DNA of 43,148 nt from a bacterium (GTDB lineage Bacteria > UBA10199 > JACPAL01 > GCA-016699445). How positions within the stretch are numbered: position 1 is the first letter of the stretch; each line of letters starts with the position of its first letter. Location of the stretch: NCBI GenBank assembly GCA_035454885.1, contig DATIGE010000035.1, forward strand, positions 1 through 43,148, given 5' to 3'. Of the stretch, positions 1 to 28,448 are shown piece by piece. Below the pieces are notes generated by a model. That model was not told where the DNA came from and ran no database searches. It was given only the letters and a program-made list of their open reading frames with translations. Made by a program: the position numbers and the translations under genes.

Positions 1-723
1 GACCGAGGTCTTCAGGCACTCGTCGATCTTGCACTCCGACGTGCAGTAGGGCGCGTTCGGATCGTTCGGCGCCTTCGGATCGCATTGCTCCCCCGCCGCC
101 GTGTCCACGCTGCCGTTGCCGCATTGGGAAGGGAGCTTGTACACCGCCCGGTACCCGGTGACGGCCTGGAGGGTCGGTCGGGCCTCGGGCGCCGTATAGA
201 CCGCCTGGTACTCGGTGGCGGCTTGGAGGGTCGGTCGGGCCTCGGGCGCCGTGTAGACCGCCTGGTACTCGGTGGCGGCCTTATATTCGATCCGGCAGGT
301 CGACGGGCAGCTGTCGCCGTCCCGTGTGGCGCAGGTCCCCGAGCCGATGCCCGTGCAGTCCGTGGCGGAGGTGCAAGCCTTCTGGCCGTCCTCGCACTGT
401 TTGCCGTCGTCGCAGGACTCGCCTGCCTCGACCTTTCCATTTCCGCAATAGGGCATGGCCATGAAAACGGCGGACCGTTCGATCACCAGGGCGGGACATA
501 TCTCGTGGTTTACAACGCAACTCTGGAATGCCGGATTGGGCGTCCCCTCGGGATCGCAAACCTTCACGCACTTGCAACATTCTTGGATGGCGGCCGGCAG
601 TGACGGCGAGGTGCAAAGGTCGCACGCTTGAAGCACGGTAAACGAATAGGCGGACGATGAACAGACCGCGCCGAGAACGGCGCCCAGAAGGCAGGCCGTC
701 AGCCGGATTTTTTTGAGGGTCAT
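1..723 (-). CDS. Exported Cys-rich protein with myxobacterial disulfide repeats, C-terminus beyond window
   Basis: The frame is open from an ATG at 723 to the left edge (241 codons), so the gene is partial. The N-terminus (MTLKKIRLTACLLGAVLG..) is a Sec signal peptide. A first Cys-rich module follows (CGNGKVEAGESCDDG), then about three copies of a 19-residue repeat (TEYQAVYTAPEARP type), then a second CGNG..GEQCD module. CGNG...GE.CDDG is the hallmark of the DUF4215/myxobacterial disulfide-rich repeat found on secreted and surface proteins of deltaproteobacteria. An extracellular or surface role is inferred and no enzymatic function is apparent. No Shine-Dalgarno is visible. A sigma-54-type promoter lies 15 bp before the ATG, which would make the message almost leaderless. 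Confidence 0.8.
   Translation of the reverse strand, partial: MTLKKIRLTACLLGAVLGAVCSSSAYSFTVLQACDLCTSPSLPAAIQECCKCVKVCDPEGTPNPAFQSCVVNHEICPALVIERSAVFMAMPYCGNGKVEAGESCDDGKQCEDGQKACTSATDCTGIGSGTCATRDGDSCPSTCRIEYKAATEYQAVYTAPEARPTLQAATEYQAVYTAPEARPTLQAVTGYRAVYKLPSQCGNGSVDTAAGEQCDPKAPNDPNAPYCTSECKIDECLKTSV
130..279 (-). repeat. 57-bp tandem repeat coding a 19-residue unit
   Basis: Two nearly identical 57-bp units (223-279 and 166-222) and a diverged partial third (about 130-165) lie head to tail in the Cys-rich protein gene. Each unit encodes AATEYQAVYTAPEARPTLQ. The third copy reads AVTGYRAVYK and then returns to the CGNG module. The repeat is in frame and forms a spacer between two disulfide modules. 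Confidence 0.9.
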
Positions 724-737
724 ATCAGACGTAGGAA

Positions 738-752
738 GCAAGCCGAGTGCCA
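738..752 (-). promoter_or_regulatory. Candidate sigma-54 promoter of the Cys-rich protein gene
   Basis: On the minus strand the sequence reads TGGCAC-N5-TTGC, an exact match to the -24/-12 consensus with correct spacing. The predicted start is near 726, only about 3 nt before the ATG at 723. That is unusual and is the main reason for caution. A tandem palindrome that could serve as the activator site lies about 110-140 bp upstream of the predicted start. Confidence 0.6.
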
Positions 753-834
753 AACTTGGCCTGAAGCGTCGTCGAAATTTTTCAAGGAATCCGAGCGCTT
801 TAGAATGAAGGTTTTCTAGGAGGCCGCAAAGGCC

Positions 835-867
835 TTATCAAAGTGATAAAAATTATCATTTTGAGAT
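835..867. promoter_or_regulatory. Tandem palindromes TTATCA-N3-TGA(T/G)A, candidate activator (UAS) site
   Basis: Two sites lie 18 bp apart: TTATCA-AAG-TGATAA (835-849) and TTATCA-TTT-TGAGAT (853-867). They sit between the divergent Cys-rich protein gene and the VWA gene. The same arrangement recurs at 27628-27659, again upstream of a -24/-12 element. The central part (844-858) also resembles a Fur 7-1-7 box (TGATAATnATTATCA with one mismatch), so a Fur-type operator is an alternative reading. Confidence 0.6.
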
Positions 868-903: not shown

Positions 904-932
904 TTGACAAGGCGCACAATTTCCAATATGTT
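904..932 (+). promoter_or_regulatory. Sigma-70-type promoter of the VWA gene pair
   Basis: TTGACA at 904-909, a 17-bp spacer, then TATGTT at 927-932. The predicted start is near 939, which gives a leader of about 20 nt that holds a G-rich ribosome site (GGGGGATT) just before the ATG at 959. Confidence 0.65.
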
Positions 933-958: not shown

Positions 959-2653
959 ATGCGCAAAACCATTTTTCTCGCCTTGGCCACGCTGTCCGTT
1001 GCCGTTTCTTTCCGGGGAGCGGAGGCCAAGACCGACATCGAATTCGTCTTGGACGCCTCCGGCAGCATGCGCGCCGCCATGGGCGGTTCCACCCAGATCG
1101 ACATCGCCAAGCAGACCGTCAAGTCGACGATCGGAACGATCCCGGCCGACACGCACGTCGCCCTCCGCGTTTACGCCCATCGCGTGGAACAATCGGACAA
1201 GGCCGGGAGCTGCGTGGACACCGAGCTCATGATCCCGTTCGGGCCCCTCAACGCCGCGGCCTTTTCGGCCAGGGTCGATTCGATCCAGCCCAAGGGCTAC
1301 ACACCCATTGCCTATTCTCTCCAGCAGGTCGCGAACGATTTCGGCATCGACCGGGAGGCGGAGAAGGTCGTCATTTTGGTGAGCGACGGGGAGGAAACCT
1401 GCGGCGGCGATCCGGTCCAGGCGGTGAAGGATTTGATCGCCAAGGGCTTCAAGCTCAAGTTGCATGCCGTGGGTTTCAACGTCGATCCCAAGACCCAGGC
1501 CCAACTCCAGGCCATCGCGGCCGCGGGCGGCGGACAATACTACGACGCCCGGGACGGGGCGTCCCTGGGCAGCTCGCTTCAGAAAATCACGCAGGAAGCC
1601 TTGCTGGTCCAAAAGACCACGGCGACTTACGGCACCGAGATCAAAGGGGGGGACTCCTACGAAACCGCCGTTCCGCTCACTCCGGGAACGGAGTACAAGC
1701 TCAACCATCATCAGAGACAGAACCAGTTCGACTATTTTTACGTCGACTTGAAGGCCGGCCAGCAGCTCTCGGCGACGCTCGGCACCTTGGGCAAGGGCGT
1801 CAGCATCCAGGGAGAGCTGGCTCAGGACAACACGAACCCCTATGCGGGCTTTCAAATCCATGACGGCACGCGGAACAAGCTGATCGCCAAGGAGATTATC
1901 GGAGCTCCGAACCACACCGAAACCATTCAGGTCGACGCCAATCAGACGGGCCGCTACTACCTGCTCATCGGCAGTACCTACGACAACATGAACAAGGAGT
2001 GCCCGTTCAAGGTCGAGGTGAAGGACTTCTTCGACGCCGGCACCCAGCAGGACGCGGGCGATACGTTTGAAACGGCACTTGCGATCGAAAAGGGCAAGCC
2101 GTTGACCGGGGCGGTCATGTCGAGCGACGCAGGCGACGTGTACAAGATCAATACCGTGAAAGGCGAACCCATCACCTTCATGGTGATGCCGGAAAACCAA
2201 AAGGCGACGCTCAAGGCGATGGTCTTCGATGATCTTCGCGTCCAGTTGGCCGAAAACCGATCTCCTAACGACGGCGCGGGTTTCCGGGTGAGCGCTATCG
2301 CGAGCGGGCCGACCACCTTCCTTCGCGTTCAAAGGCCTTACAACGACGACGCGCCCACGAAATACACCCTCAACTTTGAGGGGGCCTCCGCAGGCGGAGT
2401 CCCGTCCGCCGCGCCGGGGGTCGCTCCGACCCCGCCGGAATCGCCGACCCAGCCTCCGCCGGTCGCGGCACCTCCGCCGCCGGCGGAAAAAACCGCCGAG
2501 AAGATCGTTGAAAAGGCGGTGGAAAAGTCGGTGGGCTTCAAATGGTTGAGCGTCCGGGGGCTGAAGGGATTGGGCATCTCCTTTGGCGTCGGTCTTCTCT
2601 CCGGCCTCATCGGCGGTTTCATGCTCTTTCGAAAGAAAAAACAGGCACCCTGA
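959..2653 (+). CDS. VWA-domain protein, signal peptide and C-terminal membrane anchor
   Basis: The 564-residue protein starts with a signal peptide (..FRGAEA). A von Willebrand factor A domain follows (about residues 24-200) with an intact metal site: DASGS, the Thr of GYTPIA, and SDGEE. Two beta-rich modules come next (about 220-470), then a Pro-rich spacer and Lys/Glu stretch. Near the C-terminus is one hydrophobic helix (GLGISFGVGLLSGLIGGF) with a basic tail (RKKKQ). Topology suggests a periplasmic or surface protein held by its C-terminus. VWA domains bind proteins in a metal-dependent way; the partner is unknown. The next gene, 3 nt downstream, is a paralog without the VWA domain. Confidence 0.88.
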   Translation: MRKTIFLALATLSVAVSFRGAEAKTDIEFVLDASGSMRAAMGGSTQIDIAKQTVKSTIGTIPADTHVALRVYAHRVEQSDKAGSCVDTELMIPFGPLNAAAFSARVDSIQPKGYTPIAYSLQQVANDFGIDREAEKVVILVSDGEETCGGDPVQAVKDLIAKGFKLKLHAVGFNVDPKTQAQLQAIAAAGGGQYYDARDGASLGSSLQKITQEALLVQKTTATYGTEIKGGDSYETAVPLTPGTEYKLNHHQRQNQFDYFYVDLKAGQQLSATLGTLGKGVSIQGELAQDNTNPYAGFQIHDGTRNKLIAKEIIGAPNHTETIQVDANQTGRYYLLIGSTYDNMNKECPFKVEVKDFFDAGTQQDAGDTFETALAIEKGKPLTGAVMSSDAGDVYKINTVKGEPITFMVMPENQKATLKAMVFDDLRVQLAENRSPNDGAGFRVSAIASGPTTFLRVQRPYNDDAPTKYTLNFEGASAGGVPSAAPGVAPTPPESPTQPPPVAAPPPPAEKTAEKIVEKAVEKSVGFKWLSVRGLKGLGISFGVGLLSGLIGGFMLFRKKKQAP

Positions 2654-2656
2654 TCC

Positions 2657-3814
2657 ATGAAAAAAAACAAACTCTCCCTCGTCCTCGGATGGGCTGTCCT
2701 CTCGTTAGTCCCGGGCCGCGCCTCGGCCCAGGAGACCCAGCCGGTCTATTACAACACGCGCGGCGGCGAATCCTACCAGACGGCGGTGCTGCCGCCGGTG
2801 GGGAAGGACCTGAAGCTCAACCACCACCAGAAGCGGGGCCAGTACGACTACTTCGAGCTGGACCTCAAGGCCGGGCAGACGCTCAAGGCGAGCTTGAGTG
2901 TGGGCGAAAAGGGCGTCGAGATCCGTCCCGACAACTCGGAGATGGAAACGGGGTACCCGTACGCGGGCCTGGTCGTCTACGACGCCGCCGGCAATCAATT
3001 GGGGCTCCTGGATTTCAACGGGGCCGAGAAGAATCTCCAAAAAACCATCGAGGTGGATGCCTCGACGCCGCAGCGGATCTACCTGCTCTTGGGCAGCGGA
3101 ACGGGTGCGATCCACAAGGACTACATGGGTTTCCGAGTGGACATCGAAGACAAGTTCGACGCCGACGGCAAGGCGGAAGCCGGGGCGACGATCGAAACGG
3201 CCCTTGCGCTCGAAGACGCGGCGCCGGGCAAGACATACGAAAAGAACCACCTGACGCGCAACGACGAGGCTGATTTTTTCAAGATTGCGACAAGGCCCGG
3301 GCAGGGCGTTTCGGTGGTGGTGACGCCGGACAATCCCCGAAGCTCGATCGCGGCGGCCCTCTACGACGAACTTCGCGTGGAGATGGACCGGGAGAGGTCC
3401 GCCGCTCCCGGCAACGCGCTGAAGCTCGACGCCAAGGCGAACACGTCGCTGACCTACCTTAAGATCAACCGCGAGCTGAGCGGGGAGCCGACCGGTTACT
3501 CGATCCGCTTCGTCGCACCGCCCCCGGAGACGAGGCCCGCGGCCGAGACCCGTCCGTTGACGCCGGAAACCCTCATTCCCTCGACTCCGACCGAGGCCTC
3601 TTCCGCGGACGAAAAGAAGGAACTCGGGGACGGGGAGCGCGAGAAGAGAAAGAAGGAAAAGGACAAGAAATCCAAGAAGACGGCCTGGTGGAAAGACCCC
3701 AAAATGTTGACGTGGGGCGGGGCAGGGGCCGGCGGAGTCCTCATTCTGCTCTTGGGCGGCCTGATCCTGCTCCGAAAATCAAAAAAGAAATCGCCGGAAT
3801 CGTCACATTCCTAA
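2657..3814 (+). CDS. VWA-less paralog of the upstream protein, membrane anchored
   Basis: 385 residues. Signal peptide (..GRASAQ), then two modules that clearly align with the post-VWA half of the preceding protein; both contain GG(D/E)SY(E/Q)TAV, LNHHQ, (F/Y)DYF..DLKAGQ and an ..F(D/E)TALA-type second module. A Lys/Glu-rich charged linker (about 320-345) precedes a Gly/Leu membrane helix (about 352-372) and a basic tail. It is probably co-transcribed and translationally coupled with the VWA gene (gap 3 nt, weak ribosome site). Shared modules imply tandem duplication with gain or loss of VWA, and perhaps a two-protein complex; both are inferences. The 3' end overlaps the convergent YggX-SufT gene by 12 bp. 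Confidence 0.85.
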   Translation: MKKNKLSLVLGWAVLSLVPGRASAQETQPVYYNTRGGESYQTAVLPPVGKDLKLNHHQKRGQYDYFELDLKAGQTLKASLSVGEKGVEIRPDNSEMETGYPYAGLVVYDAAGNQLGLLDFNGAEKNLQKTIEVDASTPQRIYLLLGSGTGAIHKDYMGFRVDIEDKFDADGKAEAGATIETALALEDAAPGKTYEKNHLTRNDEADFFKIATRPGQGVSVVVTPDNPRSSIAAALYDELRVEMDRERSAAPGNALKLDAKANTSLTYLKINRELSGEPTGYSIRFVAPPPETRPAAETRPLTPETLIPSTPTEASSADEKKELGDGEREKRKKEKDKKSKKTAWWKDPKMLTWGGAGAGGVLILLLGGLILLRKSKKKSPESSHS

Positions 3815-11058: not shown

Positions 11059-12975
11059 TTAAGGCGGCGGCGGTGTCGGCAGTGGCGGTGGCGGCGGTCC
11101 GACCTCACAGGAACAGGTATCATTGCAAAACTCACCGACGGCGCAGTCTCCATCAATCGCGCATTGGTCTGGCGGTACACTGCAGACGGCCGGCGGTGGA
11201 GGTGGCGGTGGCGGGTGGGCCACGCAATCGCCGCCGCAGTTGATTTCCGTCTCGCCGGGGTCGCAAACCCCGTTTCCGCAGCTTAAGTCGCACCAGCCAT
11301 CGGGAAGGCAGGAGGTTCCGCCGCAGTCGGCGTCCCCCGAGCAGGGAATCAAGGCGCAGAAGCCGGCCGTATCGCAGTAGGAGCCCGGCCCGCAGTCTTC
11401 GGAACCGCCGCAGCCGATGCTGTAGCAGCAATTCAGGGTCTCATCCCGGTTGTAGAGTGCGAACGAGAATTGAGGAGCCAGGGGGTTGTCGAAGGGATAG
11501 GCCGGCGATTGTCCGAGGGCCACGAAATGGGAGCGGCAATCCGAGACGTCCGAGAACGACGGGTCGCAGGCCTGGATGCCCTGCTCGGGGTCGCAATCCT
11601 GCGGGCAGGTGACGAGGTTTTCCTCGATCTCGCAGAATCCGTTTCCGCATTCGGAACCCGTTTCACAGGCGTCGCCGACCGTATCGCGATCGAAATCGCT
11701 GTTGTTTGGATCGAAATCCGCCGGACACGTGTCGCAGCGATCGCCGGTCCCGTCCCCGTCGCAGTCCGCCTGGTCCTCGTTGGGCACTCCGATGCAGTTG
11801 TCGGCGACCATCGGCACGCCGTCGTTGTCGGAATCGTTGGAGCTTCCGCAACATCCATGGAAACAGATGTTCGGAGAGCAGGCAGGACAATCGACAACTT
11901 GGGGACAGTCTTCATCCGTCGAACATGTTCCACTACAGAAGAAAGACGGAGGATCGAACGGTGGCGGCGGCTGATCCGGAGGGCATCCCGCGAAAGGAGC
12001 GACGACTCGAGTAAAAAGCTCGCAGTGGTTGAGCTGACTATTGCAATGGATGTCGAGCCCCAGAGGCGGATAGAGATCTCGGTCGCTCATGACCGCTGCG
12101 ACGTGAGGACAGGCCTCCACGAATTGATCGCAGTCCGCTTGGGCCAAACAGGTGGGCTTTTCTTTGCAAAGGGGATCCGTGTCGTCCACGACATCGGGAC
12201 AGCCGTCACCCGCCTCGTCCAGGACACCGGCCGGCACCGTGGGGCAGGCGTCCTTGGCATCGATGATCCCGTCCCGATCGGTGTCCGGGTCACACTGGGC
12301 GACGCCGTCGTGGATCTCGCAGTGGAAACGCGATCCTTCGTCGTCCTCCAGGTCCAACTCCCCTTCGGCGAGACGCGCATGAATGGGACCGGTCCCATCG
12401 GTCAACCAGTCCGCCATGAGGAAGCCGGAGAGGACGTTCATCTCCCAGGATCGTCCGGACACGTCCGTAATCTCCAAGAGTCCCGCGAGTTGATCGAGCC
12501 AAGCGAGTACGGCATGGCAGGGGGAGGACTCGGACCCGAGGACGCAACCGTCTGGCAGTTCGAGCTCCGCCTCCGCCGACAGTTCGCCGGAGATTTCGAG
12601 ACCTCCGCTCGCGCAGGACAAAAATTGGCCGGTGAGTTTTGAAAGGAAGAAATCGTCGCCACCGAACCGGTTCAGGCTGCAGGTTTCAAAATCGAGGGCG
12701 ACGGTCCCTTCATCGCACAGAGCGGTGTTCGGAAGGCCCGCCGGACAGGCGACGTCCAGCGCGGCCGAGGTCGAATCTGCGGTCCGGGCCAACTCGTCCG
12801 CGATGGCCTGGGCCAGAAGGGAGGAGGAGGATTCGAGGAGATGGATCGACGTGTCGTTGGGCACGGACCCGCCGGCCGTCTCCGCCGTCGTGGATGAGCC
12901 GCCGCCGCAGCCCGACATCATAAAAGCAACGGCGCAACCCGATGCGATCAGCCCCTGCCTTAACGTGCTGCGCAT
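11059..12975 (-). CDS. Lipoprotein with thrombospondin type 3 and Cys-rich repeats
   Basis: 638 residues. Lipobox MSGC at residue 23. The N-terminal 200 residues are unrecognised. Next come Ca-binding thrombospondin type 3-like repeats (DPDTDRDGIIDAKDACP, then DSDNDGVPMVADNC, DCDGDGTGDRCDTCP, DFDRDTVGDACE). Disulfide modules follow (CGNGFCEIEENLVTC, CGNGVCDPGETEINC), and Pro-rich stretches near the C-terminus. TSP3 repeats with such modules are typical of outer-surface proteins in deltaproteobacteria, and surface exposure is inferred. The CGNG modules resemble those in the first gene of the window. No clear ribosome site precedes the ATG. A palindrome TTATCA-AAA-TGATAA lies 64-78 bp upstream, inside prmC. 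Confidence 0.85.
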   Translation of the reverse strand: MRSTLRQGLIASGCAVAFMMSGCGGGSSTTAETAGGSVPNDTSIHLLESSSSLLAQAIADELARTADSTSAALDVACPAGLPNTALCDEGTVALDFETCSLNRFGGDDFFLSKLTGQFLSCASGGLEISGELSAEAELELPDGCVLGSESSPCHAVLAWLDQLAGLLEITDVSGRSWEMNVLSGFLMADWLTDGTGPIHARLAEGELDLEDDEGSRFHCEIHDGVAQCDPDTDRDGIIDAKDACPTVPAGVLDEAGDGCPDVVDDTDPLCKEKPTCLAQADCDQFVEACPHVAAVMSDRDLYPPLGLDIHCNSQLNHCELFTRVVAPFAGCPPDQPPPPFDPPSFFCSGTCSTDEDCPQVVDCPACSPNICFHGCCGSSNDSDNDGVPMVADNCIGVPNEDQADCDGDGTGDRCDTCPADFDPNNSDFDRDTVGDACETGSECGNGFCEIEENLVTCPQDCDPEQGIQACDPSFSDVSDCRSHFVALGQSPAYPFDNPLAPQFSFALYNRDETLNCCYSIGCGGSEDCGPGSYCDTAGFCALIPCSGDADCGGTSCLPDGWCDLSCGNGVCDPGETEINCGGDCVAHPPPPPPPPAVCSVPPDQCAIDGDCAVGEFCNDTCSCEVGPPPPPLPTPPPP

Positions 12976-13030: not shown

Positions 13031-13876
13031 TTAATAATTTATCAAAATGATAAGACGCTCGACGCCGCTGTAATCCCTCCGGATCTCACAGGGGAAGTCC
13101 TTTTTCAGCCGTTCCGCCTGACCCTCGCCGACTTCCATCAGCAACCGGCCCTTAATCTTGAGAAAGTCCGGCGCCTCCTGAAGGATCTTCTTGATGGTCT
13201 CCAATCCTCCCTGGCCTCCGTCCAACGCGCTCCGGGGTTCGTGCCGGCTGACTTCGGGCTGGAGGAAGTCGAGTTCCGAAGAGTCGATGTAGGGCGGATT
13301 GGAAACGATCAGGTCGAACTTCCGTTCCCGAGTCTCGAAAAACAGCCAAGGCGCGATGTCGGAGGTGACGAATTCGATTCGATCGGCGACGCCGTGGGCC
13401 TGGGCGTTTTCCTTGGCGACGGATAAGGCTTCTTTCGAGATATCCGTCGCCACGATTTTCGCGCCCGGAAGATTCTTGGCGAGGGCGATGGCGATGCAGC
13501 CGGAGCCGGTGCCGATGTCGAGGACGTCACCGGCCGGGGGGGCGTTTTTCAACGCCTCCTCCACCAGTAATTCCGTCTCGGGCCGCGGGATCAGCACCTC
13601 CGGCGTCACCTTGATTTTCAGTCCCCAAAATTCCGTCTCGCCGGTGATGTATTGCAACGGTTCGCGCGTCGCTCGCCGTTCGATCAATGCCTTGAATTCG
13701 GCGAGGTGCTTTTCGGAAACGGTCTTCTCAAATCCCGTGTAGAGGTCGACACGCTGGCATTTCAGAACGTAAGCCAGCAGGAGTTCCGCGTCGAGACGCG
13801 GATTGGGGATTCCCTTCTTTTCAAAATGACCGGCCGTCCACTGGATCAATTTGAGGGATGTCCAAGGTTCAGCCAT
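13031..13876 (-). CDS. prmC: Release factor glutamine methyltransferase
   Basis: 281 residues. Class I methyltransferase with VLDIGTGSGCIAIALAK (SAM-binding loop), the NPPY catalytic motif in DLIVSNPPYI, and the PRPETE segment of PrmC. It methylates the Gln of the GGQ motif of release factors, using SAM. The ATG overlaps the end of prfA by 8 nt, consistent with its substrate being encoded next to it. Confidence 0.96.
   Translation of the reverse strand: MAEPWTSLKLIQWTAGHFEKKGIPNPRLDAELLLAYVLKCQRVDLYTGFEKTVSEKHLAEFKALIERRATREPLQYITGETEFWGLKIKVTPEVLIPRPETELLVEEALKNAPPAGDVLDIGTGSGCIAIALAKNLPGAKIVATDISKEALSVAKENAQAHGVADRIEFVTSDIAPWLFFETRERKFDLIVSNPPYIDSSELDFLQPEVSRHEPRSALDGGQGGLETIKKILQEAPDFLKIKGRLLMEVGEGQAERLKKDFPCEIRRDYSGVERLIILINY
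13039..13053. promoter_or_regulatory. Single TTATCA-AAA-TGATAA palindrome in prmC 3' end
   Basis: A perfect 6-bp inverted repeat with a 3-bp spacer, the same half-sites as the tandem elements at 835 and 27628. Here it is single and lies within the last prmC codons, 64-78 bp upstream of the TSP3 lipoprotein ATG. No -24/-12 element follows it, so a regulatory role is doubtful. Confidence 0.25.
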
Positions 13877-15661: not shown

Positions 15662-15676
15662 GCAAGATCAGTGCCA
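15662..15676 (-). promoter_or_regulatory. Candidate sigma-54 promoter of the small hypothetical gene
   Basis: Minus-strand TGGCAC-N5-TTGC, an exact consensus match. The predicted start near 15650 leaves an 8-nt leader containing GGAG. The upstream DNA is AT-rich and holds an inverted repeat CTTTAAAA...TTTTAAAG (15685-15715) and, further out, CTGATA...TATCAG (15718-15755). Either could be an activator or bending-protein site. Confidence 0.6.
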
Positions 15677-27627: not shown

Positions 27628-27659
27628 TTATCAAAATGAGAAAATTATCAATTTGAGAC
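27628..27659. promoter_or_regulatory. Second tandem TTATCA-N3-TGAGA element, candidate activator site
   Basis: TTATCA-AAA-TGAGAA (27628-27642) and TTATCA-ATT-TGAGAC (27645-27659), 17 bp apart. Same half-sites, spacer and tandem layout as at 835-867. The centre lies about 105 bp before the predicted sigma-54 start near 27748, the usual distance for an enhancer-binding protein site. Confidence 0.65.
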
Positions 27660-27721
27660 ACGTCTACACGCCGCAGGCTTACAAAAAACAAATAGTTTCA
27701 AAGGGGTGGCTCAACGACATC

Positions 27722-27736
27722 TGGCCCACGAGTTGC
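27722..27736 (+). promoter_or_regulatory. Candidate sigma-54 promoter of the exported-protein gene
   Basis: TGGCCC-N5-TTGCA: one mismatch in the -24 box, exact -12 box and spacing. The predicted start near 27748 leaves a 17-nt leader with GGGGAG before the ATG at 27765. Confidence 0.6.
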
Positions 27737-27764
27737 ACCACCTAATGGCTACGGGGAGTAAAAT

Positions 27765-28448
27765 ATGAAAAAACGGAATATCTTCCTAACAGCCTCCATC
27801 ATTCTCTTTCTGGCGTCAGGCTCCGTTCTCCGAGCAGAGGTCACAATGAGTCCGGAGAAGTTGAAAGACTTGCAGGTCAAGCCGTGGTTGCCCAAATCCA
27901 CCGCGACTTTCAGTGCATCGTTGCCCGCGCGGGTGGAAACGCCAGAGGTGCCCCACGTGACGATCGAGACGACCTCTTGCCGATATGCCGAAGAGGAGCC
28001 CACGGCATCCGAGTACGTTGACTACAAGGAAAGCCGCTACTGCCGCCTGCCGCTACCCGAGGGAGCCGTGGTCACGCGAATTACGGCTTTCATGGTTTCG
28101 GATGAGAGGGAGGACTCGGCTGCTTTTGTTGACCGATTGCTGGATAACGGCAACTCCTCCGCGAAATTCATCGTCGTTCCGGAACATGTGGTCGACGATC
28201 ACTACGTGACCGGGGCCGTCGTCTGTACCTCGGGGGGGACGAATCCCGGTTTTATGGCGATCCATGAGAGGAAGAAGACGTTCGATTGCCGGGTGGGCAT
28301 TCCCGTTGACCAGGATAGTTCTTTCTATGTTCGAATCGAGAGCCGGGTGAAGGCAAGGCCGGAATTTCGGGACGTCGTTATGACCTCTAAACACATCATC
28401 TTTCCGATCGTCAGACTGATTCAAGTGGAATACGAGGGCGGCAGTTGA
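27765..28448 (+). CDS. Exported protein of unknown function
   Basis: 227 residues. Signal peptide (MKKRNIFLTASIILFLASGSVLRAE). The mature part is probably beta-rich, with four cysteines (TSCRY, RYCRL, VVCTS, FDCRV) that could form two disulfides. I recognise no family. Base composition looks lower in GC than the neighbours, and the upstream 200 bp are AT-rich, which may mean an acquired or specially regulated gene. It sits behind a candidate sigma-54 promoter with a tandem activator site. Confidence 0.75.
   Translation: MKKRNIFLTASIILFLASGSVLRAEVTMSPEKLKDLQVKPWLPKSTATFSASLPARVETPEVPHVTIETTSCRYAEEEPTASEYVDYKESRYCRLPLPEGAVVTRITAFMVSDEREDSAAFVDRLLDNGNSSAKFIVVPEHVVDDHYVTGAVVCTSGGTNPGFMAIHERKKTFDCRVGIPVDQDSSFYVRIESRVKARPEFRDVVMTSKHIIFPIVRLIQVEYEGGS

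Follow-up and report, generated by a model that had tools for sequence, protein, structure and literature searches.

Jelsbak et al. 2005 (cited in PMC12288465) are said to have described FHA-domain sigma-54 activators in Myxococcus xanthus and to have tied them to fruiting-body development. Sigma-54 has more generally been portrayed as a controller of the bacterial exterior, including lipoproteins, EPS and flagella (Francke et al. 2011, PMC3162934). The closest precedent for the system described here is the PEP-CTERM/EpsH regulon with PrsK-PrsR, in which a sigma-54 motif and an activator motif precede genes for exported proteins, and where PrsR was assigned as the activator by phylogenetic profile (Haft et al. 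2006, PMC1569441). A further related case is that of large MYXO-CTERM surface proteins, which leave the cell through the type II system (PMC12288465, PMC11980579). How bacteria such as the one considered here time the deployment of large secreted or surface proteins is little known.

The window (the whole stretch of 43,148 nucleotides analysed here) is contig 35 of a genome, G000, that comprises 2.76 Mb in 82 contigs. The following features were found near its left end:

1 to 723, minus strand: gene for an exported Cys-rich protein, with its ATG at 723-721 and the signal peptide MTLKKIRLTACLLGAVLGAVCSSSAYS
738 to 752, minus strand: sigma-54 -24/-12 promoter TGGCAC-TCGGC-TTGC, an exact match that reads TGGCACTCGGCTTGC at 752-738
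835 to 849, unstranded: predicted enhancer site 1, TTATCA-AAG-TGATAA, with exact palindrome arms, reading TTATCAAAGTGATAA
853 to 867, unstranded: predicted enhancer site 2, TTATCA-TTT-TGAGAT, 18 bp from site 1, reading TTATCATTTTGAGAT
904 to 932, plus strand: sigma-70-like promoter TTGACA-N17-TATGTT, read from the sequence, of the divergent exported gene at 959-2653

Both the exact TGGCAC-N5-TTGC element before the gene and the tandem sites upstream of it, on which the original prediction was built, were found in place. The promoter faces outward, 82 bp from the tandem site, and an outward promoter is likewise present at 14 other clusters of G000. On the opposite side of the 835-867 sites, no sigma-54 match pointing toward the divergent gene 959-2653 was detected. 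The latter is the first of two exported genes that follow each other at 959-3814, divergent from the Cys-rich gene, and it has a von Willebrand-type start. The Cys-rich gene itself is truncated at base 1, where the contig begins; the 241 amino acids that can be read contain 9.5% Cys and a myxo_disulf_rpt repeat, and short tandem DNA repeats of GGGTCGGTCGGGCCTCGGGCGCCGT are found at 130-290. Its ATG is a credible start codon because MTLKKIRLTACLLGAVLGAV is a signal peptide and no alternative start lies nearby.

A second locus, at which the identical combination had been claimed to recur, and a third exact site absent from the original prediction are made of the following features:

27628 to 27642, unstranded: second locus, first predicted enhancer site, TTATCA-AAA-TGAGAA
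27645 to 27659, unstranded: second locus, second predicted enhancer site, TTATCA-ATT-TGAGAC, at 17 bp from the first
27722 to 27736, plus strand: sigma-54 promoter TGGCCC-ACGAG-TTGC, reading TGGCCCACGAGTTGC, 62 bp from the sites
27765 to 28448, plus strand: gene for an exported protein of 227 aa, MKKRNIFLTASIILFLASGSVLRAE, family not assigned, with a Shine-Dalgarno-like GGGGAG at 27753-27758
13039 to 13053, unstranded: single exact site TTATCAAAATGATAA ahead of a lipoprotein gene, with no sigma-54 promoter
11062 to 12975, minus strand: this lipoprotein gene (638 aa, 9% Cys)

Sites and promoter do recur at 27628-27736; as the second promoter is TGGCCC-N5-TTGC, however, the combination is equivalent rather than letter-identical. 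Its predicted transcript start lies at about 27748, and the 227-aa product has no Pfam match. The lipoprotein encoded at 11062-12975 matches an MtsC-type repeat model locally and weakly. One more exact TGGCAC-N5-TTGC, at 15662-15676 on the minus strand, has no motif beside it; it is located about 400 bp ahead of a ribosomal protein L31-like gene and is probably due to chance.

Within the window, the motif (up to 1 mismatch) has 8 matches, with 0.23 expected, and the -24/-12 pattern alone has 7, with 4.95 expected. As the latter excess is not significant, the case rests on the combination, which was examined genome-wide. In G000, TTATCA-N3-TGAKA (TTATCANNNTGAKA) is found 53 times and its reversed-pattern control not once. 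The palindrome with up to 2 mismatches yields 83 sites (8 in the control), TTMTCANNNTGAKAA yields 25 (0 in the control) and TGGCMC-N5-TTGC yields 46 (16 in the control). A genome without rpoN had been considered in the original prediction as a possible objection; the gene is present once, as a single PF04552 match (E 3.7e-63), along with about two dozen sigma-54 activators. When all G000 sites were read, the motif could be refined to TTMTCA-N3-TGAKAA, often present as two copies 17-18 bp apart. The paired motif is an array of four TGAKAA half-sites in alternating orientation, with a spacing of about 9 bp. The middle half-sites look like a 7-1-7 Fur box; a Fur-box reading of the array was dropped because single sites have the opposite orientation.

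When clusters were selected by the motif alone and then scored for GG-N10-GC promoters (up to 2 mismatches) 45-150 bp away, an outward promoter was found at 15 of the 26 clusters of G000, compared with 2/26 for the inward control and 4.7% for random positions (binomial p ~6e-14 for the outward coupling). Clusters chosen in the same manner in G001, a relative from another family, had an outward promoter in 17 cases out of 22, at distances of 53-89 bp, and an inward one in 2. Hence, the genome-wide search that had been suggested as a check ties the motif to outward -24/-12 promoters in both genomes. Similar figures were obtained in G006 (9/10 clusters) and G013 (9/11), and 11 of 17 loci fetched from motif-poor members of the class fit the layout. 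Five relatives of the same little-studied order contain 9-30 matches to TTMTCANNNTGAKAA per genome; all five, and some class members too, show an enrichment of exact palindromes. The recurrence of the outward layout in G001, G006, G013 and the motif-poor members indicates conservation well beyond the species of the window. Family f6 (G007, G014, G023) has 0-1 sites per genome; 400 kb of G014 contained 4 sites (up to 1 mismatch) against 1 in the control, one of them promoter-linked, numbers that are too small to reveal a changed motif.

The genes downstream appear, from their sequences, to encode mostly exported proteins. A signal-peptide-like start follows 18/27 outward promoter matches in G000 and 18/21 in G001, with a background of 29%; these calls come from a simple hydrophobicity heuristic, and the promoter matches (up to 3 mismatches) include chance ones. 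The domains detected among targets are Cys-rich DUF4215/myxo-disulfide, delta-60, beta-propeller, DUF11, TSP3 and subtilase, and lipoproteins are also found. Scanning of targets with Pfam and NCBIfam gave no PEP-CTERM match. Export of the targets would proceed through the type II system. One conserved target is an exception in being cytoplasmic: it has about 125 aa, its gene carries the paired sites together with the promoter in each of five genomes (L075:9247-9618 on the minus strand, L205:1613-1987, L369, L364 and L349), and it matches nothing in Pfam or NCBIfam.

The predicted transcript start of the 738-752 promoter lies at about base 726, and the resulting 3-nt leader had been regarded as a weak point. 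Such a short predicted leader is, however, a recurrent feature and the usual geometry in G001, where the start codon is located 11-15 nt past the -12 GC at 13/17 promoters, with a sharp peak at 14 nt. The corresponding distance is 14 nt at the Cys-rich gene of the window and 12-15 nt at three other genes of G000. Starts were taken as the first plausible signal-peptide start, a choice biased toward short leaders. A Shine-Dalgarno sequence is not evident at most of the short-leader promoters of G001.

Two orthologous lipoprotein genes, L068 (G000:C10:22053-22085) and L199 (G001:C3:113.4 kb), have an exact TGGCAC-N5-TTGC upstream of the start. Their paired sites lie inside signal-peptide codons (VIKMIKIITLI / LKMIIFIIVITT), downstream of the predicted transcript start; some sites may therefore act from downstream. 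About 11 of the 26 G000 clusters (~40%) lack a recognisable sigma-54 promoter, which qualifies the regulon reading. Many of these sites are located at or within the start of lipoprotein genes, and some may serve a repressor or an activator of sigma-70 promoters. At G000:C47:53072 (L083:6073-6087), a site without a visible sigma-54 promoter precedes a kinase-TPR gene by about 40 bp, and this gene is followed by one for a GAF-type sigma-54 activator.

Activators of the motif-rich genomes (G000-G006) were collected and grouped. Only four are common to all seven: E1, E2, E3 and an FHA-AAA-Fis protein, R40. In G000 they are located as follows:

G000:C15:6878-8149: R40, FHA-AAA-Fis activator of 424 aa, encoded immediately behind the operon for type II secretion (gsp)
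G000:C54:27.8-31.9 kb (L092, G000:C54:26500-33500): a histidine kinase gene, then E1-E3 in tandem, conserved across the whole class

R40 matches the Pfam models FHA (5.9e-20), Sigma54_activat (9e-70) and HTH_8 (3.5e-9), and GAFTGA is present in the alignment. It scores 334 bits against the PEP_resp_reg model TIGR02915, under the cut-off of 502.6. In G000, G001, G006 and G013, gspN (TIGR04411) and the rest of the gsp genes immediately precede the R40 gene; in G003, one gene separates it from the operon. Ser/Thr kinase genes are found within a few kb in G002 and G005, and in G004 R40 adjoins an ORF that, judged by look, resembles a kinase. The recognition helix is A[KTV]ST[LI][FY] in motif-rich genomes and ARTT/ARSS in family f6. 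The association between helix and number of sites (Mann-Whitney p 1.6e-4) is not corrected for relatedness, and, with a contrast that comes mainly from one family, it lacks phylogenetic independence. In addition, several genomes whose R40 carries the AKSTLF helix have few sites. R40 was not found in G009, which has sites with promoters, nor seen in G045 (83% complete). The gsp/R40 operon contains no motif site.

On sequence grounds, R40 may be considered the activator of the regulon with somewhat better than even odds, ahead of E1-E3 and of other factors. An unlikely alternative is that the sigma-54 regulon is the same but its activator is one of the response regulators E1-E3, in which case it would answer a two-component signal. 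All seven motif-rich genomes indeed encode E1-E3, and so does G009, where sites exist and the FHA activator was not found. However, their recognition helices are unchanged in family f6, which is essentially site-free, and the 400 kb of G014, a genome that has E1-E3, gave one candidate only. Furthermore, among the seven genomes only G004 has a site, a single one, in front of the E1-E3 operon, and no outward sigma-54 promoter points from that site toward the operon. With no site in either the gsp/R40 or the E1-E3 operon, autoregulation does not help to identify the activator. Quite doubtful is the proposal that the sites bind a regulator other than a sigma-54 activator, either a dimeric repressor or an activator, that acts at sigma-54 and sigma-70 promoters of envelope genes. 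The G000 clusters that have a site and no sigma-54 promoter, often overlapping a lipoprotein gene start, are in its favour, as is the sigma-70-like promoter located about 37 bp away from them, ahead of the divergent gene 959-2653 of the window. Against it, G001 has few promoter-less sites, L196 and L193 (with 3-mismatch promoters) as well as L199 (promoter upstream, sites in the gene) add sigma-54 cases, and both the 53-90 bp distances and the tandem sites fit enhancers.

G000 also encodes about 12 very large sigma-54 activators (L043-L054 and others; open frames of ~1170-1630 aa), several of which have the same recognition helix. That the regulon is driven by the kinase-fused activators among the large ones (group K1, open frames of ~1350-1630 aa) is very improbable: several K1 paralogues with one common recognition helix exist in G000, but K1 is absent from the motif-rich genomes G001-G006 and present in G015 and G019, with 3 sites each, a two-way mismatch in distribution that contradicts this assignment. 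Other candidates failed as well. R38, with the helix GIDRKHIRNLLKKYG, was not seen in G003 and G004, which have 9 and 15 sites; N37, an NtrX-like protein, was not seen in G001, which has 30; and the GAF activator by the kinase-TPR gene C47:53072, attractive for its upstream site, has no orthologue in G001-G006. Finally, one could imagine AT-rich palindromes and -24/-12 matches that coincide by chance, in keeping with the -24/-12 matches of the window, whose number by itself is compatible with chance. The 53 sites against 0 in the control, the coupling of motif and promoter, and the recurrence in relatives refute this view, and its probability is negligible.

Altogether, sequence statistics concerning the motif, the promoters, their outward coupling, the exported products and their conservation point with high confidence to a sigma-54 regulon of exported proteins that is both real and conserved. 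One activator, as also proposed originally, may serve all sites; the candidates were narrowed to four, with R40 as the favoured one. Our main reading, to which we assign a probability of roughly 0.6, is an enhancer-array sigma-54 regulon of exported proteins with R40 as its presumed activator and a presumed link to type II secretion. An enhancer-binding protein, most likely the R40 encoded right after the gsp operon, would bind arrays of TGAKAA half-sites 45-150 bp upstream of a GG-N10-GC promoter and use ATP to open sigma-54 RNA polymerase there, thus switching on genes for secreted proteins, surface proteins and lipoproteins. The FHA domain of R40 would read phosphothreonine made by a Ser/Thr kinase, and would thereby link the expression of exported proteins with both kinase signalling and the secretion machine. 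A tentative extension, which we consider possible without holding it likely, is that the phosphothreonine-reading FHA activator of the secretion operon itself switches on the cargo genes, that some arrays work from downstream inside signal-peptide codons, and that near-leaderless sigma-54 transcripts are the norm in some relatives.

The regulon suggests that one regulator may turn on much of the exported coat of the cell. A sharp motif, a candidate activator that can be named and the gsp link make the question of deployment directly testable, and, in genomes whose exported proteins mostly fall outside known families, the motif offers a means of compiling candidates.

Compared with described systems, R40 shares the domain order of the Myxococcus xanthus FHA activators, namely FHA, sigma-54 AAA and Fis-type HTH; those proteins are reportedly tied to fruiting-body development. 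The general theme set out by Francke et al. 2011 (PMC3162934) is the same, but FHA and type II secretion are absent from its text. Like MYXO-CTERM proteins, the targets are large surface proteins that would be sent out by the type II system; unlike them, the ten scanned with NCBIfam carry no detectable MYXO-CTERM tag. Searches of open-access full texts, outside whose scope most subscription papers fall, found no report of this motif or of an FHA activator that is tied to the operon of a type II system. As in the PEP-CTERM/PrsR case, genes for exported proteins are preceded by an activator-site motif that a spacer separates from a -24/-12 motif, and the activator, here the candidate R40, is linked to an export or sorting system. 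The two differ in that PEP-CTERM/PrsR relies on a TTTACA-type motif, a receiver-type activator and EpsH sorting, while TTMTCA-N3-TGAKAA, FHA and type II secretion would take their place here. The system would thus be a second pairing of sigma-54 with an export system beside PEP-CTERM/PrsR, with an input of the Ser/Thr-kinase type (FHA) instead of a two-component one.
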